A stretch of DNA of 64,000 nt from an uncultured Prevotellaceae bacterium. Its GTDB lineage: Bacteria > Bacteroidota > Bacteroidia > Bacteroidales > Bacteroidaceae. This document shows, piece by piece, positions 276 to 56,426 of this stretch. Made by a program: the position numbers and the translations under genes. The stretch spans positions 1 to 64,000 of the forward strand of contig ONLY01000004.1 in the NCBI GenBank assembly GCA_900318775.1, written 5' to 3'. The notes beneath the pieces are model-generated. The model was given only the letters and a program-made list of their open reading frames with translations, made no database searches and was not told the DNA's origin. The stretch's first letter is position 1; each line of letters begins with the position of its first letter.

Positions 276-346
276 GTTAATTGATAATTGACAATTGCCA
301 TGCAGGGTGTCTGCCGAACTGTCAACTGTCAATTGTCAACTGTCAA
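276..346. repeat. Hairpin element with heptamer arm (H1)
   Basis: The right arm is four 7-nt units (actgtca, actgtca, attgtca, actgtca; 318-345). The left arm 276-296 is imperfectly complementary to it. The loop contains ccatgcagggtgtct, whose reverse complement recurs in the loop of the element at 1117-1203. The two copies therefore flank the pseudouridine synthase gene in inverted orientation. Confidence 0.6.
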
Positions 347-387
347 CTAGATAAGATTGTCAATAAGATAAGAATAGTCTTGCGGTC

Positions 388-1056
388 TCACTTGCCGAAG
401 GACTGCCAAAGCTTGTCGTCGGGCAGCGGTGCCTCGACTGAGATTTCCTTCTTGCTGACCGGATGGATGAACTGCATCGTGCGGCTCAGCAGGGAGATGC
501 TCCCGTCGGGATTGGAGCGCTTGGCGCCATACTTGAGGTCGCCCTTGATGGGGCAGCCTATTTTGGCAAGCTGGCAGCGTATCTGGTGATGGCGGCCCGT
601 CTTGAGGTTCACCTCGACGAGGGTGTAGTTGTCGGAATGCCCGATAACACGGTAGTCGAGTTCGGCCCGTTTGCTGCGAGGCACCTCGTGGTCATAGGCA
701 TAGGACTTGTTCTGCTTCTCATTGCGCACCAGCCAATGGATGAGAGTTCCCTCAGGCTGCTCGGGCGCGTTCTTCACGATGGCCCAGTAGCGCTTCTGCA
801 CCTGTCCGTTGGCAAACATCGCATTGAGCCGCGAGAGAGCCTTGGAGGTGCGGGCGAACATGACGAGTCCTGCCACAGGACGATCCAAACGGTGCACCAC
901 ACCGAGGAACACGTCGCCGGGCTTGGCGTAGGCTTCCTTGATGTATTGCTTGACGGTGTCGCTCAGGGGCTTGTCGCCGGTCTTGTCGCCTTGCACAATT
1001 TCACCAGCCGTCTTGGAGACGATGATGATGTGGTTGTCTTCGTAGATTACCTGCAC
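388..1056 (-). CDS. RluA-family RNA pseudouridine synthase
   Basis: Probably converts specific uridines in rRNA or tRNA to pseudouridine. At 222 residues it is a short RluA-type catalytic domain without an S4 domain. The signature HRLDRPVAG is at residues 55-63, with Asp58 as the expected catalytic residue. The N-terminal part (VIYEDNHIIIVSK) and the later LKTGRHHQIR segment are typical of the family. The start used is a GTG at 1056. No in-frame ATG lies just upstream, where the sequence passes into a repeat element. The RNA target cannot be told from sequence. It follows fabG on the same strand across a 226-bp repeat-filled spacer, so co-transcription is doubtful. Confidence 0.88.
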   Translation of the reverse strand: MQVIYEDNHIIIVSKTAGEIVQGDKTGDKPLSDTVKQYIKEAYAKPGDVFLGVVHRLDRPVAGLVMFARTSKALSRLNAMFANGQVQKRYWAIVKNAPEQPEGTLIHWLVRNEKQNKSYAYDHEVPRSKRAELDYRVIGHSDNYTLVEVNLKTGRHHQIRCQLAKIGCPIKGDLKYGAKRSNPDGSISLLSRTMQFIHPVSKKEISVEAPLPDDKLWQSFGK

Positions 1057-1282
1057 TGGAATGAGTTGAGAGTTGAGAATTTACAATTGAGGATTGAGAA
1101 TTAGTTTCGCCGAGCCGCTACAAACATTGAGAATTGACAATTGTCATTTTAGGAAGACACCCTGCATGGCAATTATCAATTCTCAATTCTCAACGTTTGT
1201 AGCAGCGAGAGCAGAGTCAAGTGCACTTGAACTATGCCGAGTCGCGCCCAAACCTCAGCGAAGCTAATTGTCAATTAACTGA
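1057..1282. repeat. Nested inverted-repeat element filling the spacer (H2)
   Basis: Two stems are nested. The outer arms 1093-1114 and 1254-1275 match at 19 of 22 positions. The inner arms 1117-1149 and 1171-1203 match at about 28 of 33. The inner loop 1150-1170 contains agacaccctgcatggc, the inverse of the loop sequence at 297-312. Arms contain 7-nt units such as tcaattc. No reading frame of interest is seen. Confidence 0.7.
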
Positions 1283-2041
1283 TTACATGTTCATGCCGCC
1301 ATCAATCTGGATGACCTGACCGCTCACGTAGCTTGACATGTCGGATGCGAGGAAGAGACACACGTTGGCGATGTCCTCTACCTGACCACCACGACGAAGT
1401 GGAATCTTCTTCATCCAGTCGGCACGAATTTCCTCAGGAAGCTGAGCTGTCATAGCGGTCTCGATGAAGCCTGGAGCTACCGCGTTGGCACGCACGCCCT
1501 TAGGACCGAGCTCCTGTGCGATAGACTTGGCCAAGCCAATCATACCAGCCTTTGATGCTGAGTAGTTGCACTGACCGGCGTTGCCGTGAACACCTACTAC
1601 TGAAGACATGTTGATGATAGAGCCGCCACGCTGACGGAGCATGATAGGAGCACAAGCGTGGATGAAGTTGAAGGCTGACTTGAGGTTGACGCTCAGCACA
1701 GCGTCCCACTGCTGCTCGGTCATGCGGAGCATGAGGCCGTCTTTCGTGATGCCGGCGTTGTTTACCAGGATGTCAATAGAACCGAAGTCTGCGTGAATCT
1801 GCTTCACAACAGCCTCTGTCTCAGCGAAATCAGCAGCGTTACCCGCATAGGCGCGGCAGGTGACACCAAGCGCCTCAATCTCCTTGCGGGTTGCCTCAAG
1901 GCCAGCGGCCATATCGTCGTTGAGTACCAAATCTGTGAATGCAATGTTAGCACCTTCCTGTGCAAACTTCATAGCGACAGCCTTGCCGATGCCGCGCGCA
2001 GCGCCTGTTACAATCGCTGTCTTACCTGTTAAAAGTCCCAT
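1283..2041 (-). CDS. fabG: 3-oxoacyl-[acyl-carrier-protein] reductase
   Basis: NADPH-dependent reduction of 3-oxoacyl-ACP in type II fatty acid elongation, in the cytoplasm. The 252-residue length fits. This is a classical short-chain dehydrogenase with cofactor motif TGAARGIG (12-19), NNAG (94-97), Ser147, and YSASK with Tyr160 and Lys164. The C-terminus (YVSGQVIQIDGGMNM) is characteristic of FabG. The upstream neighbour on the same strand is a TetR regulator 77 bp away, which could control it. No acpP, fabD or fabF is next to it, so a related short-chain dehydrogenase role cannot be fully excluded. Confidence 0.92.
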   Translation of the reverse strand: MGLLTGKTAIVTGAARGIGKAVAMKFAQEGANIAFTDLVLNDDMAAGLEATRKEIEALGVTCRAYAGNAADFAETEAVVKQIHADFGSIDILVNNAGITKDGLMLRMTEQQWDAVLSVNLKSAFNFIHACAPIMLRQRGGSIINMSSVVGVHGNAGQCNYSASKAGMIGLAKSIAQELGPKGVRANAVAPGFIETAMTAQLPEEIRADWMKKIPLRRGGQVEDIANVCLFLASDMSSYVSGQVIQIDGGMNM

Positions 2042-2118
2042 GAATCTTTTGTTGTTTTAAAGTTTATATTATTCTTTGTCTCGTTGATACTGAGCGAGCG
2101 GCCAGGGGCGCGCCCGAA

Positions 2119-2718
2119 TCAGTATGCGCCGTATTTCAAGTTTCTTCCAAAATGGCGGAATACCATGTTGCGCACGTAGGGATAGAGTTCCTCAGCGTTC
2201 TTGGCTGCATAGCGGCCATAGATGTAAGGCACTTCACAGCCCTTGAGGCAGTAGTGCATGATTTCGGACGAGAGGCGCACGTTGCGGATATCGAACACGC
2301 CCTTGTCGATGCCCTCGTTCATGATGCGGCGGAAGAGGTTGATTTCGTTCTTGTCGAAGGTCTTGCGCACCGACTCCACCTTCCACACGTCGCGGAAGAA
2401 CTCGGCTCGCAGGTTGCCGTTGCGGTACACAGCCTCCTTCATCACTTCGAGATGGGCAAAGATGAGCTGCACTATCTTTTCCTCGGGGGAGATGCTGCGG
2501 CGGGCCACCTCTTCCATACGCTCGTAGAGGCGGTCGAGCTCCGTCTGGATGACCGCCAGATAGATTTCCTCCTTGCTGTTGAAATATGTATAAAGGGTTC
2601 GCCGCCCACGGTTCGCCGCCACAGCGATATCGTTCATCGATGTATCCTCGAAGCCGTTCTTTGCGAAGAGCTGGCGAGCCACATCCACTAAAAGCGCCCT
2701 TGTCTTTACAACCGACAT
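2119..2718 (-). CDS. TetR/AcrR-family transcriptional regulator
   Basis: Putative DNA-binding repressor of 199 residues. The N-terminal helix-turn-helix is clear: LLVDVARQLFAKNGFEDTS, then MNDIAVAANRGRRTLYTYF and NSKEEIYLAVI. The rest is an all-helical ligand domain with no recognisable specificity. The ATG at 2718 (MSVVKT) is chosen because it fits the family N-terminus. An in-frame extension to 2787 adds 23 basic, unrelated residues. A TAATTTTG box lies upstream at 2811-2804. Located just upstream of fabG on the same strand, so a role in fatty-acid or envelope control is possible but inferred. Confidence 0.85.
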   Translation of the reverse strand: MSVVKTRALLVDVARQLFAKNGFEDTSMNDIAVAANRGRRTLYTYFNSKEEIYLAVIQTELDRLYERMEEVARRSISPEEKIVQLIFAHLEVMKEAVYRNGNLRAEFFRDVWKVESVRKTFDKNEINLFRRIMNEGIDKGVFDIRNVRLSSEIMHYCLKGCEVPYIYGRYAAKNAEELYPYVRNMVFRHFGRNLKYGAY

Positions 2719-2803
2719 GAATTGATATTTTTTGAGTTTCTTCTGTATTGTGCTTTTGCCCTGCGTGCGGGCAGGAAACAAGCACAAGAGCTGTTTCCGT
2801 GTG

Positions 2804-2811
2804 CAAAATTA
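2804..2811 (-). promoter_or_regulatory. TAnnTTTG promoter box for the TetR gene
   Basis: TAATTTTG on the minus strand, 85 bp before the chosen start at 2718. It matches the Bacteroidetes -7 consensus. No clear -33 element was identified. Confidence 0.5.
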
Positions 2812-2915
2812 CAGAAAAAAGTTGAATGCGCAAAGCTTTTTTTGCACATCTTTTCATCGCCGATACACACCCGTCTATTTTCTAGGGAGTTGCATCGTGC
2901 ACAAGGCGTAATGCA

Positions 2916-4301
2916 TCATCCGAAGAGCTCTCTCAGAGCTTCTTCTACTTTGCGGACGGGCACGACCTTGATTTTGAACTTGCCCGTGTCGAGCCCGCTC
3001 ATGTTGGCGCGCGGCACTATCATCTTGCGGAATCCCAGCTTGTCAGCCTCGGCAATGCGCTGCTGGATGCGGCTGACGGGACGCACCTCACCGCTAAGGC
3101 CCACCTCGCCCGCAAAGCAGATGTCACGGGGAATGCCTGTGTCCACATTGCTGGACAGCACAGCGGCAATGACGCTCAGGTCGATGGCGGGGTCGGTCAC
3201 CCGGATGCCTCCGGCAATGTTGAGGAACACGTCGCGCTGGGGCAGCTTGAAGCCGACTCGCTTCTCAAGCACGGCGAGCAGCATGTTGAGCCGGCGCAGG
3301 TCAAAGCCCGTGGCTGAGCGCTGAGGCGTGCCGTAAGCGGCGGTGCTGACCAGCGCCTGGGTCTCGATGAGCAGAGGGCGCACACCCTCGATGGAGCAGG
3401 CCACAGCGACTCCGCTCAGCTCTTCTCCGTCTTTCACGTCGCTGAGCAGCAGTTCGGAGGGGTTCTCCACAGGACGCAGCCCGTTGTGCACCATCTCGTA
3501 GATGCCCAGTTCGGCAGTGGAGCCAAAGCGGTTCTTGATGGCGCGAACGATGCGGTACATATAGTGCTGGTCGCCCTCGAACTGCAGCACAGTGTCCACC
3601 ATGTGCTCCAGTATCTTGGGACCGGCAATTGCGCCCTCTTTGGTGATGTGGCCTATGACAATGACGGGCACGCCGGACTCTTTGGCATATTTGAGCAACA
3701 TCGCTGCACACTCGCGTATCTGGGTGACGCTGCCGGGCGACGACTCGACTGTCTCGGTGGCCATCGTCTGGATAGAGTCTATCACCAGCAGGTCGGGCTC
3801 CACTTCCTTGATGTGCTCAAGCACTCGCTCCATCATCGCCTCGCACACTACGTAGAGCGTGGACAGCTGAGAACTGGCACCCTCGACAATCCGGTCGGCA
3901 CGCATCTTCAGCTGGCGGGCGCTCTCCTCCCCGCTCACATACAGGACCTTGTGCCCCTTGAGGCGCAGCACCGTCTGCAGGACGAGCGTGGATTTTCCGA
4001 TGCCCGGCTCGCCGCCCAGCAGCGTCATGCTGCCCGGCACAAGGCCTCCGCCCAGCACACGGTTCAGTTCCCCGTCGCCCATGTTGATGCGGGGCTCGTC
4101 GTCTGTCTGGATGTGCGACATCAGCACGGGGCTTGACTTCTGTGCCCCTTTCTCAAGGTCCGGCAACACCTGCGGAGCCGCCTTCCCCACCCTGTACTCG
4201 GAGAAGGTGTTCCACTCGCCGCAGGCCGGACACTTGCCAATCCACTTCGGGCTGTCATAGCCGCACGATGTGCACACGTATGCTATCTTTTCTTTTGCCA
4301 T
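2916..4301 (-). CDS. radA: DNA repair protein RadA
   Basis: RecA-like ATPase that helps process recombination intermediates and branch migration. All parts are present in 461 residues: an N-terminal C4 zinc finger (Cys10, Cys13, Cys24, Cys27), Walker A GEPGIGKST (97-105), Walker B region LLVIDSIQT (171-179), the RadA-specific KNRFG motif (256-260) and a C-terminal Lon-protease-like domain (GGIRVTDPAIDL and FAGEVGLSGEVRPV). The start at 4301 (MAKEKIAYVC) is standard. A TATCTTTG box lies at 4399-4392, and the leader between box and start consists largely of heptamer repeats. Confidence 0.97.
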   Translation of the reverse strand: MAKEKIAYVCTSCGYDSPKWIGKCPACGEWNTFSEYRVGKAAPQVLPDLEKGAQKSSPVLMSHIQTDDEPRINMGDGELNRVLGGGLVPGSMTLLGGEPGIGKSTLVLQTVLRLKGHKVLYVSGEESARQLKMRADRIVEGASSQLSTLYVVCEAMMERVLEHIKEVEPDLLVIDSIQTMATETVESSPGSVTQIRECAAMLLKYAKESGVPVIVIGHITKEGAIAGPKILEHMVDTVLQFEGDQHYMYRIVRAIKNRFGSTAELGIYEMVHNGLRPVENPSELLLSDVKDGEELSGVAVACSIEGVRPLLIETQALVSTAAYGTPQRSATGFDLRRLNMLLAVLEKRVGFKLPQRDVFLNIAGGIRVTDPAIDLSVIAAVLSSNVDTGIPRDICFAGEVGLSGEVRPVSRIQQRIAEADKLGFRKMIVPRANMSGLDTGKFKIKVVPVRKVEEALRELFG

Positions 4302-4309
4302 TCTATTTT

Positions 4310-4374
4310 GAGTTAGGAGTGAGGAGTTAGGAGTTAGGAGTTAGGAGTTTCTGCTTTCACACTTCACCTTTCAC
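4310..4374. repeat. Two heptamer arrays in the radA leader
   Basis: Five 7-nt units of gagttag type occupy 4310-4344 and three of ctttcac type occupy 4354-4374. The first array ends 8 nt before the radA start codon. The gagttag heptamer is the same one that occurs next to the asnS start. Confidence 0.75.
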
Positions 4375-4391
4375 ATTTCCTTACTGAAGGA

Positions 4392-4399
4392 CAAAGATA
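4392..4399 (-). promoter_or_regulatory. TAnnTTTG promoter box for radA
   Basis: TATCTTTG on the minus strand, giving a leader of roughly 85 nt that contains the heptamer arrays. Confidence 0.6.
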
Positions 4400-4463
4400 C
4401 GGAACTTTTCTCAGCGCCCGCACTTTTTTGGGCAAATAGTGCGTGCCAAATCAAAAAAAGCTC

Positions 4464-4471
4464 TACCTTTG
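4464..4471 (+). promoter_or_regulatory. TAnnTTTG promoter box for the DUF3943 gene
   Basis: TACCTTTG lies 28 bp before the ATG at 4500. It is the main reason for preferring that start over the in-frame ATG at 4443, which precedes the box. Confidence 0.65.
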
Positions 4472-4499
4472 TACTCGAAACCTTAAATCAAACACAAAA

Positions 4500-6155
4500 A
4501 TGAACTTCTCAAAAAAAATAGACATAGGTATGCACGGCTTGAAGATTCTCATCACTTTGCTGATCAGCATCAGCTTCTTCCACGAAGTCAAGGCATCGGA
4601 GTCTGACTCCATCTGGCACGACTCTATCACGGGCATCCGCGCACACCTGCAGCGTCCAGGCACGCTGGCCCCCTACACCTGCCCTGTCTCCATCTTTGGG
4701 AAAAAGAACAAGAGCTACTGCCTGGAGGACTCTACCCCGCTGTCAACCCTCAAGCATCCCGCGCTCCAGGCGCTCACAGAGGCGCTTGCCATTAACGCGA
4801 CCGTGCTCAGCTGGGATTATTTCGTCAAGGACCGCTCATGGGCCCGAATCAGCCGTGGGGTCATACGCGACCACCTCACCAACGGCTGGGTGTGGGACAA
4901 CGACAGCTATTCGGGCAACCAATTCTCTCACCCCTATCACGGAGGCATGTTCTACAACGCGGCCCGTGAGCACGGACTCTCATACGGTGTCTCGCTCCTC
5001 TACCCCGTGGTGGGCTCCCTCACATGGGAACTCTTCTGCGAAACGAACAGGCCAGCCATGAACGACTTGCTTTCTACAGGCATCGGAGGCGCCGCCATCG
5101 GCGAAATCACCCACCGCGCCTCAGACATCTTCTTCGACAACACCCAAAGGGGATTCCGGCGCGTGCTGCGCGAAATCGTGGGCACAGCCCTCAACCCCGT
5201 GCGAGGCTTTCACCGAATGGTGTCGGGCGAGATGTTCCGCGTGAACCGCCTCAATGCAGGCAAGAAGGAAGCACCCGAGCCTTACAGCTTCCAAGTGGGC
5301 ATGGGCGAACGTTTTATCTACGACGTGGGAGACATTCACCCCCTTGTGGGAAAGCGCTACAAGCACGGTATCCCCTACTTCGACGTGCACTTCACCTACG
5401 GAAACCACTATAACAACCTGGACCTGGGCAAGGCCGCCCGAGCGTTCGACTATTTCGAACTCTATGCGCTCGTGAACCTCGCCTCGCACAACCCCACTGT
5501 GGGCGAACTCGACTTGAGAGGACGCATCGGCTCTATTCAGCGGCAACTGCCCCACGAGTGGAAGCTTGACATAGGTTTCTACCAGAACATCCGGCTCATA
5601 GACCACTATAGCGGCAAGGAGACCCAGTCGCCAGGCAACTTGGCACTCATCTCCGAAGCTGCCAGCTTCGGTGCCGGATTCCACGCTGAGCGTCAAGGGG
5701 CAAAAGTGAGTCTCATGCACGACTTGCTGATTTCGGCCGTTCCCTTGGGAGGATGCGCTGCCGACTATTACCCCCTGCGACGCTACAACTTCGGAACGGG
5801 ATTCTCCGTAGAGCACAAGTTCCAACTGTTTCGCAATCGGCGCCTCTCGCTCTCTAACGAGTGCTACTTCATGCGTCTCTTCATCATGCGCGGAGCCGAC
5901 CTCGACAAACTGCAACGCTATCACGAGGACCCTGTGAACTATCACGAGGAACTGGAAGAAGGCATCAACGCCTGGGGCGACAAAGGGCAGCAGAGCGTGC
6001 TACGCAACCGTTTGCAATTCAATGTGCACATCACTTCCAATACGCAGATTCACCTCATGCACGAGTTCAATCTCCGGCACGGAAAGTATGAGTTCTATCC
6101 TTCTGTCACAGCCAAGAGCCACGAATGGAAGGCGGGCATCAGCTACGCAATGTAG
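4500..6155 (+). CDS. DUF3943 family protein, probably outer-membrane associated
   Basis: A 551-residue exported protein of unknown function. The N-terminus (KILITLLISISFFHEVKAS) is a signal peptide or anchor. A block with NQFSHPYHGGMFYNAAREHG, WELFCETNRPA and FFDNTQRGFRR corresponds to the DUF3943 family as I know it. The C-terminal half has alternating, aromatic-rich segments that end in HEWKAGISYAM, consistent with a beta-barrel, but this is inferred. The start follows a TACCTTTG box. The spacer to the next gene is 223 bp and holds that gene's own promoter, so this gene is probably monocistronic. Confidence 0.75.
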   Translation: MNFSKKIDIGMHGLKILITLLISISFFHEVKASESDSIWHDSITGIRAHLQRPGTLAPYTCPVSIFGKKNKSYCLEDSTPLSTLKHPALQALTEALAINATVLSWDYFVKDRSWARISRGVIRDHLTNGWVWDNDSYSGNQFSHPYHGGMFYNAAREHGLSYGVSLLYPVVGSLTWELFCETNRPAMNDLLSTGIGGAAIGEITHRASDIFFDNTQRGFRRVLREIVGTALNPVRGFHRMVSGEMFRVNRLNAGKKEAPEPYSFQVGMGERFIYDVGDIHPLVGKRYKHGIPYFDVHFTYGNHYNNLDLGKAARAFDYFELYALVNLASHNPTVGELDLRGRIGSIQRQLPHEWKLDIGFYQNIRLIDHYSGKETQSPGNLALISEAASFGAGFHAERQGAKVSLMHDLLISAVPLGGCAADYYPLRRYNFGTGFSVEHKFQLFRNRRLSLSNECYFMRLFIMRGADLDKLQRYHEDPVNYHEELEEGINAWGDKGQQSVLRNRLQFNVHITSNTQIHLMHEFNLRHGKYEFYPSVTAKSHEWKAGISYAM

Positions 6156-6213
6156 AAGCCTCATAAAAGATGAAAAGAGAAAGGGGAAAGGTCGAAGGGG
6201 AAGAGGGAGAGAA

Positions 6214-6303
6214 CTCAAATCTCAAATCTCAGTTTACTTTCATGCCCCTACATTTCACCCTCCACATTATACAATTGACCTCTTCACATTTTCACTTTTC
6301 ACA
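6214..6303. repeat. Heptamer arrays upstream of the pectate lyase gene
   Basis: 7-nt units of ctcaaat type at 6214-6234 and of ttcacat/tttcact type at 6283-6303. The second array ends 10 nt before a TACCTTTG promoter box. The same heptamers next to a promoter occur upstream of the M13 peptidase gene at about 46509-46536. Confidence 0.65.
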
Positions 6304-6313
6304 TGAAAAGTTG

Positions 6314-6321
6314 TACCTTTG
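6314..6321 (+). promoter_or_regulatory. TAnnTTTG promoter box for the pectate lyase gene
   Basis: TACCTTTG, 57 bp before the start at 6379, directly downstream of a heptamer array. Confidence 0.65.
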
Positions 6322-6378
6322 TGGCCAAAACCACTTGTGGGCAAAATAGACACACAAGTTTAGCCGACAAAGCGAACA

Positions 6379-9363: not shown

Positions 9364-9396
9364 AATCTTAGACACGAAACATACATATATTGATTT

Positions 9397-10560: not shown

Positions 10561-10597
10561 CAATTAGTTTAACAAGGGGCTAGTTGCTATAAACGTT

Positions 10598-10681
10598 GAA
10601 AATTGACAATTGATTATTACCAAGCGGGATGCTGTCTATCAGCAGGCACCGCGTAAGCGTAATAATCAATTGTCAATTTTC
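10598..10681. repeat. Hairpin element with a perfect 22-bp stem (H3)
   Basis: Arms 10598-10619 and 10660-10681 are exact reverse complements around a 40-nt loop. The loop gcgggatgctgtctatcagc... can be aligned with the loop of the element at 21213-21300 (gcgatgcgttctatccgc...). It sits between two convergent genes, so it may also terminate transcription in both directions. Confidence 0.75.
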
Positions 10682-10704
10682 TATTATTTATCCTTATAAG
10701 AATA

Positions 10705-11940: not shown

Positions 11941-11948
11941 TCAGCATT

Positions 11949-15770: not shown

Positions 15771-15771
15771 T

Positions 15772-16445: not shown

Positions 16446-16547
16446 CACCATACTTTAGGACAGCACATCTTTTTGTAACGTACAAAGCGTTGTCTTGAAG
16501 AACTCATCTCATTCAAATCATTCCAAGATAACTTAATCAGCAACTCT

Positions 16548-16630
16548 TAATACATAATTTATAATGTATGGTTAGAGCTGATGCGATGCACGCAAGCCGC
16601 ATGCCTATGCACATTATAAATTATACATTA
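16548..16630. repeat. Hairpin element in the rho leader (H4)
   Basis: Arms 16548-16567 and 16611-16630 match at 18 of 20 positions and are built from units like attataa/attatac. The 43-nt loop contains gcgatgcacgcaagccgcatgcc, which is similar to the loop of the asnS element (gcgatgcgttctatccgcatggc). It ends 28 nt before the rho ATG. Confidence 0.7.
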
Positions 16631-16657
16631 GGGAAAGCATTAACACCTATATTTTCT

Positions 16658-21204: not shown

Positions 21205-21301
21205 AAGTTAGGAGTTAGGAGTTAAGAGTTAGGAGTTAGGCTAACGCGATGCGTTCTATCCGCATGGCAAATCCTAACTCCTAACTTCTCACTCTTAACT
21301 G
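21205..21301. repeat. Hairpin element before asnS (H5)
   Basis: The left array has five 7-nt units of gagttag type (21205-21239). The right array has four complementary units (21274-21301). Arms 21213-21240 and 21273-21300 match at 24 of 28 positions. The loop holds gcgatgcgttctatccgcatggca. It fills almost the whole gap between the pseudouridine synthase and asnS genes. Confidence 0.78.
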
Positions 21302-21303: not shown

Positions 21304-22731
21304 TTATTCGTAGTGTCCTGTGTGCAGCATTGCCACCTCCTGCTCTGTGAGGAAACGCCAATCACCGCGCTTGATACCTTTCTTCGTCAGACCGGCAAAC
21401 ATCACACGGTCGAGCTTGCACACCTTGTAGCCAAGGCTTTCGAAGATACGGCGCACGATGCGGTTCTTGCCAGAGTGAATTTCGATGCCCACTTGCTTGC
21501 GGTCGGTGTCAGAAGCGTAGCTGATAGCATCTGCCTTGATGTCGCCATCTTCCAGCGTGATGCCCTCTGCTATCTGCTTCATGTCGGCAGCAGTGAGGTT
21601 CTTGTCGAGGAACACGTGATAAATCTTCTTCTTCAAGAACTTAGGATGCGTGAGCTTTGAAGCCAAGTCACCATCGTTAGTGAAGAGCAGCACACCCGTT
21701 GTGTTGCGGTCCAGACGACCTACAGGATAGATGCGCTCGCGGCAGCAATTCTTCACGAGGTCCATCACCGTCTTGCGCTGCTGTGGGTCATCAGAAGTGG
21801 TCACGTAGTCCTTTGGCTTGTTCAGGATAACATACACTTTCTTCTCGATGCTGACGAGCTGGTCGTGGAAGTGCACTTGGTCGGTACGCTGAACCTTCGT
21901 TCCCAACTCTGTCACCACCTGTCCGTTGACTGTAACCACACCTGCCTGAATGAACTGGTCGGCCTCACGACGAGAGCAAACACCTGCATTTGCCAGGAAC
22001 TTGTTCAAACGGATTGGTGCGTTAGGATCCTCAAGATACTCCTTATATTCAATCTGCTTCTTCAAGCTATATTTAGCATTAGGGTTGTAGTCGGCTGTGC
22101 GTGGACGATAACCACCTGGACGCTGCTGATAGCCGCCACGGTTGTTATTATTGTAGCCGCCACGCTGCTGGTAACCGCCTTGGCGAGGCTGGTAGCCACC
22201 ACGATTGTTGTTGTAGCCGCCACGCTGCTGGTAGCCGCCACGCTGCTGATAGCCGCCTTGGCGAGGCTGGTAGCCACCCTGCTGTTCGAAGTTTCCTTCT
22301 CCGTCGCCATTCTGCTGATAGCCACGCTGCTGATATCCGCCGCGGTTGTTGTAGCCGCCACGGTTGTTGTAGCCGCCACGCTGCTGGTAACCACCACGCT
22401 GCTGATAGCCGCCATTATTGTATGGACGCTGCTGATAGCCGCCCTGACGAGGCTGGTAGCCACGCTGTTCGCCTTCGTTTCCTTCCGAAGAGCCACCAAA
22501 GCCAGAGGGGCGGAAGCCACGCTCATTCTGTACGCCATTTGAACTGTATGCAGCACGCTCGCTACGATTGAAGCGAGGACGCTGCGGACGGTCGCCACGA
22601 TTGAACGATGGGCGGCCACCAAAATTGTTTTCACGGTTGTAAGATGGACGGAAGCCCTCACGGTCGCCGCCATTGTCAGATCTTTCTTCTGCTGCAGGTG
22701 CATTGCCCTGCCATTCTTCAATTTCAGACAT
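21304..22731 (-). CDS. RsuA/RluB-family pseudouridine synthase with Gly/Gln/Tyr/Arg-rich N-terminus
   Basis: Probable 16S or 23S rRNA pseudouridine synthase, 475 residues. The catalytic part is about 235-475. It has an S4 RNA-binding domain (IRLNKFLANAGVCSRREADQFI), then VGRLDRNTTGVLLFTNDG with the catalytic Asp, and GKNRIVRRIFESLGYKV. Residues about 20-225 are low complexity with tandem GGYQQR, GGYNNR and GGYQPRQ units, like eukaryotic RGG domains. Such extensions are known in Bacteroidetes homologs and may bind RNA or ribosomes. The start at 22731 is followed by a plausible acidic lead (MSEIEEWQG). It lies between purB and asnS, all on the minus strand. Confidence 0.92.
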   Translation of the reverse strand: MSEIEEWQGNAPAAEERSDNGGDREGFRPSYNRENNFGGRPSFNRGDRPQRPRFNRSERAAYSSNGVQNERGFRPSGFGGSSEGNEGEQRGYQPRQGGYQQRPYNNGGYQQRGGYQQRGGYNNRGGYNNRGGYQQRGYQQNGDGEGNFEQQGGYQPRQGGYQQRGGYQQRGGYNNNRGGYQPRQGGYQQRGGYNNNNRGGYQQRPGGYRPRTADYNPNAKYSLKKQIEYKEYLEDPNAPIRLNKFLANAGVCSRREADQFIQAGVVTVNGQVVTELGTKVQRTDQVHFHDQLVSIEKKVYVILNKPKDYVTTSDDPQQRKTVMDLVKNCCRERIYPVGRLDRNTTGVLLFTNDGDLASKLTHPKFLKKKIYHVFLDKNLTAADMKQIAEGITLEDGDIKADAISYASDTDRKQVGIEIHSGKNRIVRRIFESLGYKVCKLDRVMFAGLTKKGIKRGDWRFLTEQEVAMLHTGHYE

Positions 22732-22740
22732 AATCGAATT

Positions 22741-22761
22741 ATTAACTATTAACTTGTAACT
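22741..22761. repeat. Heptamer array before the RsuA-type gene
   Basis: Three 7-nt units: attaact, attaact, tgtaact. They begin 10 nt upstream of the start codon at 22731. No partner arm was found. Confidence 0.55.
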
Positions 22762-22805
22762 ATTTATTTTGCGATTGTATCAATTTTACTTATAACAATC
22801 TTCTT

Positions 22806-44383: not shown

Positions 44384-44433
44384 CTGTACATGAAGGCTGA
44401 AAGGTACTCCTTCCTATGTAGGATTCTGTGCCA

Positions 44434-46458: not shown

Positions 46459-46489
46459 TTATGATTGGTTTTTGTCTGTATCGAGCCGC

Positions 46490-46497
46490 AAAGGTAC
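46490..46497 (-). promoter_or_regulatory. TAnnTTTG promoter box for the M13 peptidase
   Basis: TACCTTTG on the minus strand, 31 bp before the start at 46458. Upstream of it lies the heptamer array 46509-46536. Confidence 0.65.
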
Positions 46498-46508
46498 GAC
46501 TTTTTCAT

Positions 46509-46536
46509 GTGAAAGGTGGAATGTGGAATGTGAAAA
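46509..46536. repeat. Heptamer array upstream of the M13 peptidase promoter
   Basis: Four 7-nt units: gtgaaag, gtggaat, gtggaat, gtgaaaa. On the minus strand they read ...cac, as in the arrays at 4354-4374 and 6283-6303, and like the latter they sit directly upstream of a TACCTTTG box. Confidence 0.65.
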
Positions 46537-46712
46537 ATCAATAATGGGCAGACAGGATGCAGAGATAAAGTCAAAGGGCAGAGGCCTGAGGTCAAAGGCG
46601 GGCAGTGAATCCTTTGCCCAAGAGGAATGCACTTTGAGTGTATAAGTTCAATTACTTAACAACCGGCTACTTATGCAACAAGACGGTTGAAATATGACTT
46701 TTGACATACAAA

Positions 46713-46740
46713 TTGTGAATTGTTGATTATGAATTATGAA
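46713..46740. repeat. Heptamer array upstream of the small-protein operon
   Basis: Four 7-nt units: ttgtgaa, ttgttga, ttatgaa, ttatgaa. They end 10 nt before a TACCTTTG box. Confidence 0.6.
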
Positions 46741-46750
46741 TTAAAAACAC

Positions 46751-46758
46751 TACCTTTG
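46751..46758 (+). promoter_or_regulatory. TAnnTTTG promoter box for the 46.8-49.3 kb operon
   Basis: TACCTTTG, 24 bp before the ATG at 46783. Confidence 0.65.
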
Positions 46759-46782
46759 CACCCAAGAATACAAAAAACACCT

Positions 46783-46980: not shown

Positions 46981-47006
46981 TTTTTCTTTTTGAAACACCC
47001 TACTCC

Positions 47007-47876: not shown

Positions 47877-47887
47877 AGGCAAGAGAT

Positions 47888-48583
47888 ATGACATATTGTT
47901 TTTCCGGTACGGGCAACAGCCAATGGGTAGCAGACAAACTCCAAGGACTGCTCCAAGAAGAAGCGGACTCTTTTGGACTGGTTTTCCCTGTCTATGCATG
48001 GGGCATCCCCAAAGTGGTTACGCAGTATATCCTAGAGCATCTGGAAGAAATCAAGAAAGCAAAGTATGTGTGGGCCGTCATGACCTGTGGGGATGACATT
48101 GGTTATGCCGACCTCATTCTCAACCAACTGCTAGAGGAAAGACTGGATGCGGTCTTCTCAGTCCAGATGCCTAACACGTATGTCTGTCTGCCAGGCTTTG
48201 ATGTTGACCCTGCCGATGTGGCAAAAGCCAAGGTACAAGAGACCTTGAAGCGCTTGCCGACCATTGCCGATAGCATCGGGAAGCATGAGAAAAAGACGGA
48301 AGTAGTGAGAGGAAGTTCAGCATGGCTGAAGACATATGTGCTTCGTCCTCTTTTCAACCGTTTCCTCGTCACCGACAAATATTTTCATACAAATATACAC
48401 TGCATACACTGCAAGCGCTGTGTACGTGGATGTCCTCAAGGCAACATCACCCTCGATGCAGATGACAATATTCGTTGGAAGCATGAGAACTGCACGGGTT
48501 GTCTCCGATGCTATCACCGGTGCCCCTGCCACTCAGTACACTTCGGCATCTTCACCAAAAACAAGGGACAACACCATCTGTAA
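47888..48583 (+). CDS. EFR1-type flavodoxin/ferredoxin fusion
   Basis: A cytoplasmic electron carrier of 231 residues. The N-terminal part is a short flavodoxin fold (MTYCFSGTGNSQWVADKL, FPVYAWGIPKV). The C-terminal part carries two 4Fe-4S motifs, CIHCKRCVRGCP (about 172-183) and CTGCLRCYHRCPC (about 202-214). The combination is that of the EFR1 family, whose partners are unknown to me. It is 11 bp after the DUF1460 gene and 12 bp before the B3/B4 gene. Confidence 0.85.
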   Translation: MTYCFSGTGNSQWVADKLQGLLQEEADSFGLVFPVYAWGIPKVVTQYILEHLEEIKKAKYVWAVMTCGDDIGYADLILNQLLEERLDAVFSVQMPNTYVCLPGFDVDPADVAKAKVQETLKRLPTIADSIGKHEKKTEVVRGSSAWLKTYVLRPLFNRFLVTDKYFHTNIHCIHCKRCVRGCPQGNITLDADDNIRWKHENCTGCLRCYHRCPCHSVHFGIFTKNKGQHHL

Positions 48584-48595
48584 GCACTTTTTCCC

Positions 48596-49261
48596 ATGAA
48601 AGTAATCGTATCAAATGAGATAGAGCAAATCTGCCCTGAATTTGTCGGGGCATGTCTGGAGGCTGAGGTAGTCAATTCACCTTACAATGAAGCCTTGTGG
48701 AGAGAAATAAACACGCAGGGAGAGCTGTTCCGCAAGGAATTGACCACAGAATCGCTGAAGGAACAAGCCAGCATATCCGCAACCAGAAGAGTGTATAGGG
48801 CCTGTGGCAAAGACCCCTCTAGATACCGTCCTGCCTCCGAAGCGCTGATACGCCGTATGCTTCAAGGCAAGGAACTCTATCAGAGAGACACGCTTGTTGA
48901 CCTCATCAATCTGGCATCCATTGCCTACGGATACAGCATCGGAGGCTTTGATGCAGACAAATTTGTAGGTGACACACTCACTTTAGGCATCGGACGTGAA
49001 GGAGAACCGTATGAAGGCATCGGACGTGGCTTCATCAATATTCATGGTCTGCCCGTGTATCGTGACGAGCAAGGCGGTGTGGGAACTCCCACAAGCGATA
49101 ATGAACGGACGAAGATGACCCTTGGAACCCGTCACTTACTCGTTCTCATCAACGGCTATGACGGCAACGAGCAACGCGTGCGTGACAATGCAACTTACAT
49201 ACAGGCCCTCCTCCAGAAATATGCTCAAAGCGACGGAGGTTCCTTCTTCATTTACAAATAA
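48596..49261 (+). CDS. B3/B4 tRNA-binding domain protein
   Basis: A 221-residue stand-alone B3/B4 domain, related to the editing domain of phenylalanyl-tRNA synthetase beta chain. Signatures are TRRVYRACGKDPSRYRPASEALIRRML, NLASIAYGYSIGGFDADK and GTPTSDNERTKMT. Proteins of this type may clear mischarged tRNA, but that is a family-level suggestion. Last gene of the operon, followed by a bidirectional hairpin. Confidence 0.82.
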   Translation: MKVIVSNEIEQICPEFVGACLEAEVVNSPYNEALWREINTQGELFRKELTTESLKEQASISATRRVYRACGKDPSRYRPASEALIRRMLQGKELYQRDTLVDLINLASIAYGYSIGGFDADKFVGDTLTLGIGREGEPYEGIGRGFINIHGLPVYRDEQGGVGTPTSDNERTKMTLGTRHLLVLINGYDGNEQRVRDNATYIQALLQKYAQSDGGSFFIYK

Positions 49262-49332
49262 GCACTGACCATGGATAAAGGAGTGTAGATAGATAATGAT
49301 TCAAAACGTATAGCCTTGCGCATAAGGAAACG

Positions 49333-49372
49333 CAAATAGCCACAAAGTCTTGCTTGACTTTGTGGCTATTTG
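49333..49372. terminator. Bidirectional terminator hairpin
   Basis: A perfect 16-bp stem (49334-49349 with 49356-49371), extended by one pair, with loop ttgctt, between convergent genes. Its core cacaaagtc/gactttgtg is shared with the hairpin after asnS. Confidence 0.82.
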
Positions 49373-49402
49373 TTATGCAGCACTTGCTTCAGAAAAGAGC
49401 AG

Positions 49403-51781: not shown

Positions 51782-54700
51782 TGCTGCATAACAATCCTGT
51801 CTGTAGTTTCTCCTTCGCGGTTTTTCTCCTGTTCTCCACTTTCTGGTGATTCTTCCCTTCTTCTCATCGGAGGCACTTCTTCCTTCTTCTTACGCCAGAT
51901 AAACAGATCGGAGAACTTATCCATTTTCTTGCGCAACAGCACACCCGCACCATTCTTGTCCAACTCGCCTTCAATCAAGTTGGAATAGTCTTTTTCATGG
52001 AAAAGACGCACATACTGCGTGCCGCCATTGTCAAGTCTCCACTCCAACGAAACGTCATCGATGTAGGCACCTGATTCGTTATACTGCTCACTACCGCCAT
52101 CAGAACTCACCTTGCCTCCAATCACCACATTGAGGCGGTCCGAGAAGAAGCGGCGTGAGAATTTGAACGAATAATCTGTTCGGGTTGTTCCGTCATCACG
52201 CGTGGTCTGTTCCATGCCCACATTCACATCCACCATCGTGGACATAGCCTTACCTGCGATGTTATTAATTTCATTCTGCAAGAAACTGTTCAACGCATTG
52301 CCAGCTGTGAATCCTTTCTTGTTTGAGCCAGAAAGGTACATGCCTGTGGCAAGCATACCTACAGCCAACTTGTTCTTTTCCTCTGCCGAGCAAGCAGCCA
52401 GCTCGTTCTGAACAGAAATATCTTCAGGCGCATCAATGATGAACTCCAGCCCCATGTTAGACAACGTGTTAGAAATCTTCAGACCTGCATCGAAAGCCAC
52501 ACTGCGACTAGTTCCATCTGCAGCTCCTACGGTAGCCTTCACTCGTTCCGTAGCTGTTATGTTGAGCACAGGATTAGCGGGCTCACCTGCAAACTCCACG
52601 TATGAACCATTATGGATGGTAAAGGTCTTCAGCGGAATAACGGGGAGAGTGTACTTCATCTCACCCTCATTGATGGTATAGCGTCCCTGCATGTTCAGTA
52701 CACCCTCAGGCGTGTAAGTCATAGTGACAGAACCACCACCTTGCACCTTTACGTAACTCTCATGATCAGCAGAGAGATCGGCATTCAGTTTGGCGCCATC
52801 CTCAATGCTGAGCGTGAGGTTCATATCCATGCCCATAAAGGTCTTTTTCACCATCTCGTCACGCGGTGGAGGAGGAGCGTTGAAATCAATAAATGTCACG
52901 ATGTCTTCCAGTCGGTCTGTTTGATAAAGTGGCGTATCTGTCAGCACATATGTGATGTTGGTCGTAGGTAACACACGCACCATGCCACGCACCGTCATGT
53001 CTTGCGTAGAACCCAGCACACGCACAAAGAAGTCGCCATACATATCACCATACAGAAGTGACTTAGCAGCAGGCTTTGCTTCTATCACGTGGAAGTTACG
53101 TCCCATCAACGAAAGCGACATGAAAATTTCCGACAAGTCTGCGAAATCCACATAACCGTTCAGCGTAAGCGGGTTGTCATCCGCGCCGTAGAACTTAAAC
53201 GCGTTAAAATCCACACGGCTGTTGTTGAACGGTATGGGCTGATTATCTAAAGCCAAGTCAACGCTGTAAGGTTTAGATAGCACATGGACATCCTTCGGTT
53301 GCAAGGCGCCATTAAAAAGCAATGAGTTCATCGGTCCTGCCACTTTCAGATTACCAGCCAAAAGGCCATTGAAAGCCAGCAACTGGTTCGGCATGAAAGC
53401 GTCGAACATCGACATGGGCACATCCATGAAAGCCAAATTGGCATCAAGAGCCCCCTCGCCCTCTGCTAAATATGTACCATCCAACTGAATCACATCACGG
53501 TCATCAAGAGCCAAGGTCGCATCCACCGCATGCATTGTCTCTCCCTTTGGCATATAGGTAAACCGTGTGCCCACATTACCCACAGGCATACCATCATAAG
53601 TAAAACGATCCACGCCCAGTGTTCCCTCCACCATGAAATTATCGCCTTGGTCAATATAGGTAGCATCAGCCGCAAGCATGCCCGTCATGCTAGGCAATCC
53701 AGGAATAGGCACCACCTTCAGAATTTCTTTCAAATTCAAGTCACTCGCAATCACATTCGCGATTTGCTTGCCAATGTCACTCTCATCAGCATACACAGCC
53801 ACATAAGCGCTGTCTGTCATGCTCGCCAAACGCACATCAGCCATAATAGGCCGATTCGGACGCGTAATAATATAGTTGTCGCTATTCAGCGTGAACTCAC
53901 GGTAAGCAATAATAGGATGTTGTGGATAAAGGCTAAAGGTCACGCATGAATCATTCGCCACACCATTCACACCCAAATCAATACCCTTCTTTCCTTGTTT
54001 ATCAAAGAAGGTAAGATGAGCATCCACTTCATCCGCCTTCAGGAATCCATCCACATATGCACGGAAAGCAGGCAGCAACAGCTGTTCCTTACACTGCACA
54101 CCCACGTGGTAATCCAACTTTGCAGAATCTTGCGTCAAATCAAAGAAGGCGGTATCAATCTTTACACTATCCGTCTTAAAGGAATACACGTGCCCGTTAC
54201 CCATCAAACCTGTTTCTGGCGATGCCTCCACATGTGCTACAAATTCATCGAATTGCACGCCATACACCCTCAGCACGTCCATCAGTGGATTCTGTTTGCC
54301 AGCGGATGCATGCATCCATATTTCAGGCAAGTAAGAACGCAACACATTCAAATCCACATCACGTTTCTTGAACTGTCTCAACGCCTCCTTCTCCAACTTC
54401 TCTATCTTGGGCATCAGGTTAAACATATTGTTAGGAGTGAAGAACGAGAAATCCAAATCGCCTGTTTGCAGCATGGCAGACGTGGTGTCCTTCTTAGCTT
54501 CCGCCATCAAATCAAAAGCCTCTGTCAAGATGCTGTCATTGCCCAGTTTCAGACTCAGCGCATCAATGTGCGAATCCACACGGAACAGTTTGTCCATGTT
54601 ATAAGAGAACTCCAACGTCCCACTCGTGCGAGCCTGCAGCACATCCTCGCTGAAGCCCATTGCTTGGACATCCAGCCAAGGCAGTTGAAGGCTCAGCAAG

Positions 54701-56355
54701 CCCTTCAACAGATTCTTCTTCAATTCACCGTCAAACGACAGGTCTGTCTGTACTTGATTATTATCAGCCACCAAATCCAGCAACACCTTGCCCCCCTTCA
54801 TCGTGGCATTAGCCGTAATGTTGCTTAGGTTTATCTTTCCCATGCGAGCATCAGTCAATAGGGCATCTGCATCCAGCACCGTAAAAGGCGAGAAGAAATC
54901 AAAACCATGTCCAGAGGCCTTCAATTGTCCCGACAGCATCGTCTGTTCCTCCATCGGCACAAAGCGGTTCACCACAAACTGATGCAGCCGCACATTCGCC
55001 CGATAAGCCTCCTGCGCCATTACATAACTCGCCTCAATGTCAGCCCTTCCGCCACGCAAGTCCTCAGCCTTCAGCTTCGTTTCCAGCGACAAGTCATTCA
55101 CCACATCCCACAGCATCGCTTCACCGTCCACTTGAACCAATCCAGGCACTTTCAGATAGAGCGTGCTCACATCCAGTGCCTCCAAGTTTCCTTCAGCCTT
55201 CAGTCTCACCTCCGAAGGACGCACAGGCAACCACTGGTTCATCATCGAGCACACATCCCTCGTCTCTGGACCGCCCATTCGAGTAAAGAACAATATGTCG
55301 CCCTTTCCCACTTGTCCCTCGCCCATCACAGAGAAGCCGCCAGGGTTCTCCTCATCAAAGGCATTCAGGTCCATTCTATAGACCGCAGTCAAATCGCTGT
55401 CCGCCGTCTTCACATGCAGTTTCGGAATGACCAACGCCAGAGAGTCCATCTCCAATCGGCACGCCGTTTCTTGAATGGTCAAGCCCGACTGCTCGACAGC
55501 AGCAAAGTGGCTCAAACGCATCGAGAGGTCTTTGCCCACTGCCGAAAGCGAATCCACCCGCAGATGTATGCCATCAAACTGCAAATGGTTAGGGTCAAGC
55601 TGCTGAGGCAGCCGAGGTTCCTTAAGGCGGTCATAAGCCACCTTCGACTCCTGCATCTCCAGCCAATCCACCTTATACGCCCCTTCCTTCAAGTCGAGGA
55701 AAGCCTTCGTCTGCAAGTTGCCAATATCTGCAGCCACCCAAGTGCTGTCCGCATTAGGTGTCAGCAACACGTTCAGCTTCACACTCTGCAACTGCAAATC
55801 CTCCAGCTGCACACGCCAATCAATCGTAGTCGTGTCTTCAGGCACCGAGTCTGCCAAGATGACCGTCAAGTCAGCATCTCTCAGCAGAGCCTCATTTATC
55901 ACAGCAAGCCCATTCTTGATGTCCGTACTGTGAGAATTGAGACTAAGTTCGGCAAGTTTGCCCTTCAACACACACAAGTCAATCATTCCCTTCGTGTTCA
56001 ACTTGGCATCATACAGATGGACGCCATCCACCTCCGCCTCCAGACGGAACAGCGGCAAAGCCCTTACGCTCACATCCAGTTCGCGCGCATCCAGCAGCGT
56101 GTCGCCCTCATCCACAGCCAGCACCCCTCCCATCGAGAGGTCAAGCGGAAACTTCAGACACACACGCTCTACCGATACCTCCATGCCCGTTTCCTCACTC
56201 AGCATCTCAGCGGCCTTATCCACCGCATATTTTTGGACAGGGGGCACATAAATCAGCACGAAAAGCAACAACAACAAGAAAATTGGAGTTAGCACCATTC
56301 CCAAGAGAATGCGCCAGCTCCAACCTACAAGCGTATACTTTCCGTACTTCTTCAT
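51778..56355 (-). CDS. tamB: Translocation and assembly module protein TamB
   Basis: A very large AsmA/TamB-type protein of 1525 residues that would bridge the periplasm. A single N-terminal anchor (ILLGMVLTPIFLLLLLFVLIYV, about 16-37) is followed by long repetitive beta-strand sequence. The conserved C-terminal DUF490 part is at about 1090-1470, with PVIPLKTFTIHNGSYVEFAG, NPVLNITATERV and QNEINNIAGKAMSTMVDVNVG. The start at 56355 (MKKYGKYT) is chosen. An extension to 56400 would read through a hairpin repeat. It overlaps the TamA-like gene by 4 bp and lies downstream of mdh. Confidence 0.93.
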   Translation of the reverse strand: MKKYGKYTLVGWSWRILLGMVLTPIFLLLLLFVLIYVPPVQKYAVDKAAEMLSEETGMEVSVERVCLKFPLDLSMGGVLAVDEGDTLLDARELDVSVRALPLFRLEAEVDGVHLYDAKLNTKGMIDLCVLKGKLAELSLNSHSTDIKNGLAVINEALLRDADLTVILADSVPEDTTTIDWRVQLEDLQLQSVKLNVLLTPNADSTWVAADIGNLQTKAFLDLKEGAYKVDWLEMQESKVAYDRLKEPRLPQQLDPNHLQFDGIHLRVDSLSAVGKDLSMRLSHFAAVEQSGLTIQETACRLEMDSLALVIPKLHVKTADSDLTAVYRMDLNAFDEENPGGFSVMGEGQVGKGDILFFTRMGGPETRDVCSMMNQWLPVRPSEVRLKAEGNLEALDVSTLYLKVPGLVQVDGEAMLWDVVNDLSLETKLKAEDLRGGRADIEASYVMAQEAYRANVRLHQFVVNRFVPMEEQTMLSGQLKASGHGFDFFSPFTVLDADALLTDARMGKINLSNITANATMKGGKVLLDLVADNNQVQTDLSFDGELKKNLLKGLLSLQLPWLDVQAMGFSEDVLQARTSGTLEFSYNMDKLFRVDSHIDALSLKLGNDSILTEAFDLMAEAKKDTTSAMLQTGDLDFSFFTPNNMFNLMPKIEKLEKEALRQFKKRDVDLNVLRSYLPEIWMHASAGKQNPLMDVLRVYGVQFDEFVAHVEASPETGLMGNGHVYSFKTDSVKIDTAFFDLTQDSAKLDYHVGVQCKEQLLLPAFRAYVDGFLKADEVDAHLTFFDKQGKKGIDLGVNGVANDSCVTFSLYPQHPIIAYREFTLNSDNYIITRPNRPIMADVRLASMTDSAYVAVYADESDIGKQIANVIASDLNLKEILKVVPIPGLPSMTGMLAADATYIDQGDNFMVEGTLGVDRFTYDGMPVGNVGTRFTYMPKGETMHAVDATLALDDRDVIQLDGTYLAEGEGALDANLAFMDVPMSMFDAFMPNQLLAFNGLLAGNLKVAGPMNSLLFNGALQPKDVHVLSKPYSVDLALDNQPIPFNNSRVDFNAFKFYGADDNPLTLNGYVDFADLSEIFMSLSLMGRNFHVIEAKPAAKSLLYGDMYGDFFVRVLGSTQDMTVRGMVRVLPTTNITYVLTDTPLYQTDRLEDIVTFIDFNAPPPPRDEMVKKTFMGMDMNLTLSIEDGAKLNADLSADHESYVKVQGGGSVTMTYTPEGVLNMQGRYTINEGEMKYTLPVIPLKTFTIHNGSYVEFAGEPANPVLNITATERVKATVGAADGTSRSVAFDAGLKISNTLSNMGLEFIIDAPEDISVQNELAACSAEEKNKLAVGMLATGMYLSGSNKKGFTAGNALNSFLQNEINNIAGKAMSTMVDVNVGMEQTTRDDGTTRTDYSFKFSRRFFSDRLNVVIGGKVSSDGGSEQYNESGAYIDDVSLEWRLDNGGTQYVRLFHEKDYSNLIEGELDKNGAGVLLRKKMDKFSDLFIWRKKKEEVPPMRRREESPESGEQEKNREGETTDRIVMQQ

Positions 56356-56363
56356 ATAAAACC

Positions 56364-56426
56364 AAAGAATTGAAGAATTGAAGCTTTGGGCAACAGCCAC
56401 ATAGCCACTTCAATTCTTCAATCTTT
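56364..56426. repeat. Hairpin element before tamB (H6)
   Basis: Arms 56364-56383 and 56408-56426 are complementary with one bulge (aaagaattgaagaattgaag). The right side is made of 7-nt units cttcaat, tcttcaa, tctttca. It ends 8 nt before the tamB start and lies between mdh and tamB on the same strand. Confidence 0.7.

Follow-up and report, generated by a model that had tools for sequence, protein, structure and literature searches.

Heptad-armed hairpins in Prevotellaceae spacers as probable gene-less derivatives of an S23-carrying mobile element family

The window analyzed here is a stretch of 64,000 nt from an uncultured Prevotellaceae bacterium (GCA_900318775.1, contig ONLY01000004.1, positions 1 to 64,000), and its spacers contain tandem arrays of 7-nt units (heptads) and long hairpins. 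The source assembly is 2.62 Mb in 41 contigs, 91% complete and, judged by its genes, apparently Prevotella-like. The hairpins are probably gene-less forms derived from small mobile elements, a family whose full-size form carries an S23 gene (PF05635, "23S rRNA intervening sequence protein", S23/IVP) between matching arrays; we give this reading a probability of about 65%.

S23 genes between complementary arrays

In the same genome, two facing arrays lie about 500 bp apart with a small open reading frame (ORF) between them, and this ORF belongs to PF05635. The genome has six S23 genes, none of them in the window. Four of the six are enclosed by inverted arms that contain 7-nt arrays, and a fifth by arms of a longer unit, as judged by eye. 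PF05635 is present in 36 of 45 genomes of the genus, in 157 of 198 sampled Bacteroidota genomes with up to 16 copies each, and in 28 of 59 cyanobacterial genomes.

Flank complementarity was measured between the 150 nt before and the 150 nt after each ORF and scored against mismatched pairs; the S23 loci are best matches and not a random sample. In the genus, 62 of 84 S23 loci had an inverted-repeat score of at least 32, compared with 67 of 1680 mismatched pairs. These loci were drawn from the first 60 genus matches listed plus the best per genome, and removal of L056 and of near-identical flanks reduced them from 95 to 84. In other phyla, which by record titles included Planctomycetota, Clostridia, Alphaproteobacteria, Acidobacteriota, Chloroflexota, Akkermansia, candidate phyla, and more, 43 of 79 loci reached the same score, compared with 87 of 6162 mismatched pairs (80 loci, one dropped for short flanks). 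Cyanobacterial loci had complementary arms in 16 of 25 cases (controls, 13 of 600) and a 7-nt array in 14 of 25, with heptads of the GTAATTC, TAATGAC, and CACTCAG types; this count leaves out L464, L468-L471, and other copies lacking a locus. The architecture is spread over many phyla.

When the loci from the genus, the phylum, and other phyla were pooled, strongly complementary flanks were found at 111 of 182 S23 loci and at 15 of 272 other ORFs of the same loci (205 loci became 182 after L056, L141, and loci with short or near-identical flanks were removed). Arrays at lag 7 occurred in 178 of 364 S23 flanks, compared with 45 of 406 distant flanks, and every other lag from 4 to 12 gave at most 18 of 364. 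Distant flanks served as the control here; the flanks of neighboring ORFs (111/272) overlap the S23 arms. The two arms share one unit, with one mismatch allowed, in 60 of 65 loci (8.6% under random pairing), and 98 different units were counted in total. The 5' arm is poor in C, with G exceeding C in 101 of 118 loci and C exceeding G in 15. At most S23 loci the S23p ORF lies within the loop of the stem.

Polymerase slippage could also produce heptads, with complementarity arising by hairpin-templated repair and no mobility involved. The mixture of units within arrays and the existence of one-sided arrays would fit such a neutral origin, and so would the abundance of heptads, which PMC4679880, in the part available to us, gives from Mrazek 2007 as the most abundant longer simple repeats in most genomes. 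However, a core conserved at many places already strains this explanation, and S23 genes inside arms in many phyla and arm-to-arm homology at two sites also speak against it. We regard it as highly improbable.

The hairpin core and its relation to S23 loci

An earlier note on this DNA described dispersed hairpins that share a core while their heptad-based arms change freely, and it proposed a search for the core in relatives and a test for compensatory changes. Both analyses bear the description out: such a family exists, and its complementary arms are mostly heptad-based. The core pattern CCATGCGGN{8,30}CGYNAGCC had 172 matches in 32 of the 45 genus genomes, compared with 5 for the reversed pattern used as control; part of the 172 fall in coding sequence and look like chance. 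Among the first 28 core copies, the arms were complementary (score of at least 28) in 18, compared with 41 of 756 mismatched pairs, and most of the others resemble chance coding matches. Of the 68 distinct copies compared, 40 had arms that pair at 21 or more of 28 positions with G-U allowed, compared with 19.9% when the right arms were dealt anew; the remaining 28 comprise chance matches in coding sequence and truly unlike arms. Changes on both sides were found at 27 of the 28 arm positions among the 40 pairing copies. Because the arms differ in unit length, arm pairs were counted by script and not with a covariance model. The earlier note had named two outcomes that would speak against such a family, copies no commoner than in shuffles, and a lack of covariation and of the core elsewhere; we found neither. 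Genome G035 has 32 core matches. Among the 20 that were fetched (12 of the 32 were left), 14 share an AAAGTTT-type unit on both arms and the others carry different units.

Among the 82 genus S23 loci, 13 had the core in their flanks, where a Markov model expects 0.9; among distant windows, 4 of 120 had it. The S23 start codon of L066 and of L121 falls inside the core, after GGCTAACGCG and GGCTGACGC, respectively; in gene-less copies the core is GGCTNACGCGATG..CCGCATGGC, as though the gene had been excised. In L066, a gene-less hairpin with identical arms adjoins the S23 gene. Ends common to the gene-less and S23-bearing forms are clear in L066, L121, L052, and L131. This anatomy suggests that the gene-less hairpins derive from the S23-bearing form. 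Per genome, the numbers of S23 and core matches had a rank correlation of 0.40 (p 0.006), and S23-less genomes differed from the rest in core matches (p 0.011), both uncorrected for kinship; the S23 counts in the correlation include a longer, weakly matching class of about 220 aa.

The copies are dispersed and short and have inverted ends, as miniature inverted-repeat transposable elements (MITEs) do. The earlier note had taken the family not to be a normal terminator, repetitive extragenic palindromic (REP) sequence, or MITE. No terminator was called at the six hairpins in a scan of loops of 3-8, and no REP-associated tyrosine transposase (RAYT) was matched in the assembly. The window hairpins are nevertheless MITE-like, because gene-bearing forms, with S23 inside such arms, exist.

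Placement, movement, and the S23 protein

S23 genes were in sense to both neighbors at 131 of 159 loci and antisense to both at 4 (23 loci without both neighbors called were left out); among 266 gene trios from the own genome, the corresponding numbers were 123 and 33. We also considered S23 elements as insertions in rRNA. Five motifs that we take to be conserved in 23S rRNA gave one stray match in 205 loci (L219), and an Rfam search of 20 S23 loci including L219 found no RNA family, so this idea was rejected.

Orthologous spacers are occupied in some genomes and short in others (the names serC, serA, and asnS were assigned by reading of the genes). Among 30 genomes compared at the serC-serA spacer, an S23 element was present in two, a gene-less hairpin with 8-nt units in two, and no more than 30 nt of spacer in eight; the remaining genomes had other sequence or were not measurable (L279). 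In other species this spacer holds inverted repeats of another family, whose unit measures about 10-11 nt (catgaatgcccacgaat; L265, L267, L272, L273, L275, L277, L280, L281). In the asnS spacer, which holds the window hairpin at 21205, six of 30 genomes had an AGTTAGG hairpin, four had the core inverted with 8-nt arms, three had other heptad hairpins, seven had a spacer of 8-13 nt, and ten had one-sided arrays or other sequence. No target site duplication was clear when the serC-serA and asnS spacers were compared by eye.

Some S23 copies at different sites are 82-89% identical. The between-site pairs L080/L109 (87.5% over 448 bp) and L078/L106 (81.7% over 471 bp) match from the outer end of the left arm through the right arm and slightly beyond, with no match outside within 700 bp. 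The match stops at the arms, and therefore in this clear case the arms are part of the unit that moved. Two other candidates for movement were rejected: L083/L120 proved to be one site, and a pair of cyanobacterial plasmids with the same S23 shared their annotated neighbors, including an integrase gene. A search of plasmids with S23 gave 34 records, and phages had no match to the S23 of L202.

The hairpins might alternatively be host elements for mRNA processing or stability, kept between the genes of operons by selection, with S23 an ordinary small operon gene. Sense placement between genes, both-sided changes in the arms, and the strong purifying selection on S23 described below are all expected under host regulation. 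However, one orthologous spacer varies in presence and absence and carries differing cores and arms, a single genome has 32 core matches with one arm unit common to 14 of the 20 fetched, and homology stops at the arms at two sites. We therefore consider host regulation unlikely.

Same-site S23 pairs had dN/dS values of 0.04-0.18 with a median of 0.06 (18 pairs, sharing loci; pairs with dS of at most 0.15 or saturated were left out), which shows purifying selection on S23. The predicted structure (pLDDT 95.5) matches 2gsc (TM-score 0.91) and 2rld. It also matches Avd of a diversity-generating retroelement (DGR; 4dwl), more weakly, with a TM-score of 0.77 and an E value of 0.01, and the DGR ribonucleoprotein. 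The likeness of 2GSC to 4DWL and the Avd-like nature of PF05635 are noted in the available part of PMC10053308. By this likeness S23 may bind RNA.

The Avd-like fold, the DGR ribonucleoprotein match, and sense placement in transcripts would also suit a retro-mobile element, in which S23 lends its RNA to a reverse transcriptase (RT) acting in trans. A search for the RT domain RVT_1 gave nothing in this assembly but matched 3 of 14 control genomes, and we think this route quite unlikely. Transposition of DNA by a single-strand (Y1) transposase, with S23 as a passenger, would resemble the mode proposed for REPINs (PMC3116915, in the part available) and would account for hairpins with a conserved core, many copies, and gene-less copies. 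The assembly again gave no match to the transposase (Y1_Tnp, PF01797, RAYT), which 5 of 14 control genomes match, and the gene in the loop is S23; this explanation is very improbable. With no match to either enzyme in an assembly that is 91% complete, RAYT and RT of the own genome were rejected as movers.

In the reading that we prefer, an S23-carrying mobile element with gene-less derivatives, the full-size element consists of a tandem-repeat arm (often heptads, C-poor), the S23/IVP gene, and the complementary arm; in some subfamilies the core adjoins the inner ends of the arms. The element occupies spacers within operons, in sense. It would most likely be transcribed with the operon and handled as RNA, and in the mRNA it would fold into a single long stem whose loop contains the gene. 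This would be the architecture of the 23S rRNA intervening sequences (IVSs), located in ordinary mRNAs, and by analogy RNase III may cut the transcript in the stem. An S23 oligomer would bind the RNA of its own element. Gene-less copies would be internal deletions that retain the arms and the core. Arms may drift by slippage of repeat units on one side, and complementarity could be restored by hairpin-templated copying, a mechanism of re-matching, together with selection.

Several observations weigh against this reading. Among other Bacteroidota (best match per genome), only 9 of 30 loci scored at least 32, compared with 11 of 870 controls, and only 6 of 27 had a 7-nt array in either flank, other unit lengths being visible there. 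In the pooled set, 71 of 182 S23 loci fall below the complementarity score, and the core is absent from the flanks of 69 of 82 genus loci and of 100 of 100 others. In genome G030 the arms match poorly in 9 of 16 core copies (3 of 19 were left unfetched), the right arm being usually TGTCAAC and the left AATGAGG, AGTTAGG, or other; thus arm pairing is not always kept. L080/L109 and L078/L106 represent the same two sites across four genomes, so they document at least one event, and the seven pairs compared base by base gave, besides these two and L083/L120, partial or broken alignments. The lack of RVT_1 and Y1_Tnp matches in the assembly also counts here. Finally, in the serC and asnS neighborhoods 7-nt arrays and hairpins with periodic arms are nearly equally dense in S23-less and S23-rich genomes (one-sided p 0.41 and 0.37), and the idea that S23 presence predicts hairpin density is not supported. 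Since density ignores S23 and core matches persist in 3 of 9 S23-less genomes, S23 is not shown to mobilize the hairpins.

Features of the window and known systems

Period 7 is dominant among the tandem repeats of the window, both in Tandem Repeats Finder and in a lag scan, and Tandem Repeats Finder gave a period-7 row at all nine arrays that the earlier note had named. Under a strict lag test of the window, there were six arrays at lag 7, three at lag 14, four at lag 21, and at most two at each remaining lag from 4 to 24, while 20 Markov shuffles of the window had none at lags 6-8. The lag scan also showed mixed units within single arrays. In 414 kb (the window plus 350 kb of the own genome in 20 stretches), we counted 37 lag-7 arrays, compared with none in one Markov shuffle; this density is biased upward because 10 of the 20 stretches were picked for holding pattern matches. 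Hairpins scoring at least 12 numbered 75 in the 414 kb and 5 in one shuffle, and part of them are heptadic. The features are as follows.

268..359, unstranded: gene-less hairpin element; arms 268-297 and 330-359 of TTGACAA/TGTCAAC-type heptads; core from 298 (CCATGCAGGGTGTCTGCCGAA); RNA fold -30.5 kcal/mol
1117..1203, unstranded: gene-less hairpin element; TTGAGAA-type arms; core reversed in orientation (CCTGCATGG); outer end motif GCTACAAACATTGA / GCTACAAACGTTGA; RNA fold -36.9 kcal/mol
4310..4379, plus strand: arrays, purine-rich GAGTTAG (4310-4349), then pyrimidine-rich CTTTCAC (4354-4379); non-complementary, coreless
6214..6304, plus strand: one-sided arrays CTCAAAT and TTCACAT; TTCACAT directly upstream of promoter-like GTTGTACCTTTG
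10586..10681, unstranded: gene-less hairpin element; outer motif GCTATAAACGTTGA; arms 10598-10620 and 10659-10681; loop CAAGCGGGATG..CGCGTAAGC; RNA fold of 10586-10690, -43.4 kcal/mol
16548..16630, unstranded: gene-less hairpin element; core GCTGATGCGATGCACGCAAGCCGCATGCC; arms loosely 7-periodic; fold of 16540-16640, -28.0 kcal/mol
21205..21301, unstranded: gene-less hairpin element filling the spacer ahead of the asnS-like gene; AGTTAGG arms; core 21239-21267, minus strand reading CCATGCGGATAGAACGCATCGCGTTAGCC; RNA fold -46.5 kcal/mol
22740..22764, plus strand: one-sided TATTAAC array
46507..46535, plus strand: one-sided GTGGAAT array; on the minus strand it adjoins promoter-like GTCGTACCTTTG
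46711..46743, plus strand: one-sided TTATGAA array
56364..56440, unstranded: hairpin; 8-nt AAGAATTG arms; short coreless loop; RNA fold -26.8 kcal/mol

The six long hairpins of the earlier note all fold, at -26.8 to -46.5 kcal/mol, and its description of their arms as 7-nt arrays needs amendment: the units at 56364-56426 are 8 nt long, and at 10598 and 16548 the arms, judged by eye, are no more than loosely heptadic. Rfam covariance models gave no family at the gathering threshold in the window, and a scan for a short GC stem and T run (loops of 3-8 only) found no terminator-like site at the six hairpins. The arrays at 4310, 4354, 6214, 6283, 22741, 46509, and 46713 are one-sided, with folds of 0 to -0.7 kcal/mol. 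We take GTTGTACCTTTG and GTCGTACCTTTG to resemble a promoter motif. The arrays at 6283-6330 and 46490-46536 abut a near-identical promoter-like stretch (TTTCACATGAAAA..GT.GTACCTTTG) in opposite directions, so that a duplicated promoter may adjoin some of the one-sided arrays.

Other repeats were seen in the window and the own genome. A conserved outer end motif, GCTAYAAACRTTGA, stands beside TTGAGAA/TTGACAA arms at window positions 1117, 1190 (minus strand), and 10586 and at L037:19388; all four of its matches in the 414 kb are at such arms. In three coreless spacers (L035:10296-10406, L034:19691-19769, and L036:12242-12354), a purine-rich AGGAGTG-type array almost abuts a pyrimidine-rich TCAACTG-type array, in the same order in all three and with arms unlike each other. 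A second dispersed hairpin family, with sequences like CGACATCGTCGACGTCGG, occurs at L033:1807-1877, L036:6816-6896, L041:634-704, and L043:2251-2321. A 39-nt tandem array (alternatively 18-nt units) lies at window 22153-22275, within a 475-aa ORF ahead of the asnS-like gene.

More broadly, S23/IVP proteins might mark a widespread class of bacterial RNA-hairpin mobile elements whose arms are heptad repeats. The rRNA IVSs would be a special case, inserted in rRNA, and short tandemly repeated repetitive (STRR)-type heptads, TAACTGA and GGGAATC arrays, and REP-like heptad hairpins would be gene-less footprints. We hold the chances of this wider proposal to be even. It would link scattered unexplained repeats across many phyla to one kind of element. 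It would also connect several puzzles: the purpose of the "rRNA intervening sequence" protein, the up to 16 gene copies per genome, the finding of S23 within rRNA in no examined locus, and the source of heptad repeats in unrelated bacteria. These become testable by one type of experiment, in which a marked element is followed for its RNA processing and its mobility. A stem that is replaced wholesale with pairing usually kept would be a natural system for how inverted repeats stay complementary. In the open-licence literature, as far as it was available and with subscription papers outside the search, we found no paper that joins heptad arrays with S23 or IVSs.

Among known systems, intrinsic terminators differ in that none was called at the six window hairpins by the scan for loops of 3-8. 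The elements resemble MITEs in their dispersed short copies with inverted ends, with no transposase identified. They resemble DGRs in the S23 fold, but a search for the RT domain gave no match in the assembly. As REPINs are described in the available part of PMC3116915, dispersed hairpins with conserved sequence are common to both; unlike REPIN/RAYT systems, the assembly has no RAYT, the arms change freely, and the loop gene is S23.

Heptad arrays that form stems are shared with cyanobacterial STRR heptads, the STRRs of RNase P RNA, and the P6b repeats of the trnL intron. Repeats of the STRR type in Cyanobacteria were reportedly described by Mazel in 1990. The STRR work of Vioque (1997) is cited in PMC2858038, again from the part available. 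In the Nostoc trnL intron, P6b stems consist of TDNGATT or NNTGAGT heptads and one motif has repeatedly replaced the other (PMC4476775), a published parallel to the arm drift proposed here. The cyanobacterial heptads here flank S23, a link that does not appear in the available part of PMC4476775. By their published descriptions, the GGGAATC and TAACTGA repeats are likewise intergenic heptad arrays. The GGGAATC heptads of Xanthomonas form 70-75 convergent inverted pairs and are generally not found with mobile elements (PMC4692102), and some spacers with TAACTGA repeats in Beggiatoaceae, Cyanobacteria, and Bacteroidetes are shorter in relatives (PMC4679880). Unlike the elements here, both are read in print as G-quadruplexes or regulator sites, and the available parts of PMC4692102, PMC4679880, and PMC2700814 describe heptads in Xanthomonas, Nostoc, Beggiatoaceae, and Geobacter without mention of S23.

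In anatomy the elements resemble the IVSs of 23S rRNA, since the S23 loci here also have a PF05635 gene in the loop of a complementary-ended hairpin. Salmonella has short IVSs without an ORF. IVSs of, for example, Leptospira, Salmonella, and Coxiella form a hairpin with complementary ends, and the loop of some contains an S23p ORF; some authors propose that they are remnants of mobile elements, and RNase III cleaves the stem (PMC4990558, available part). Unlike these IVSs, the elements described here lie in spacers of protein genes, and their arms are tandem arrays whose units change freely.

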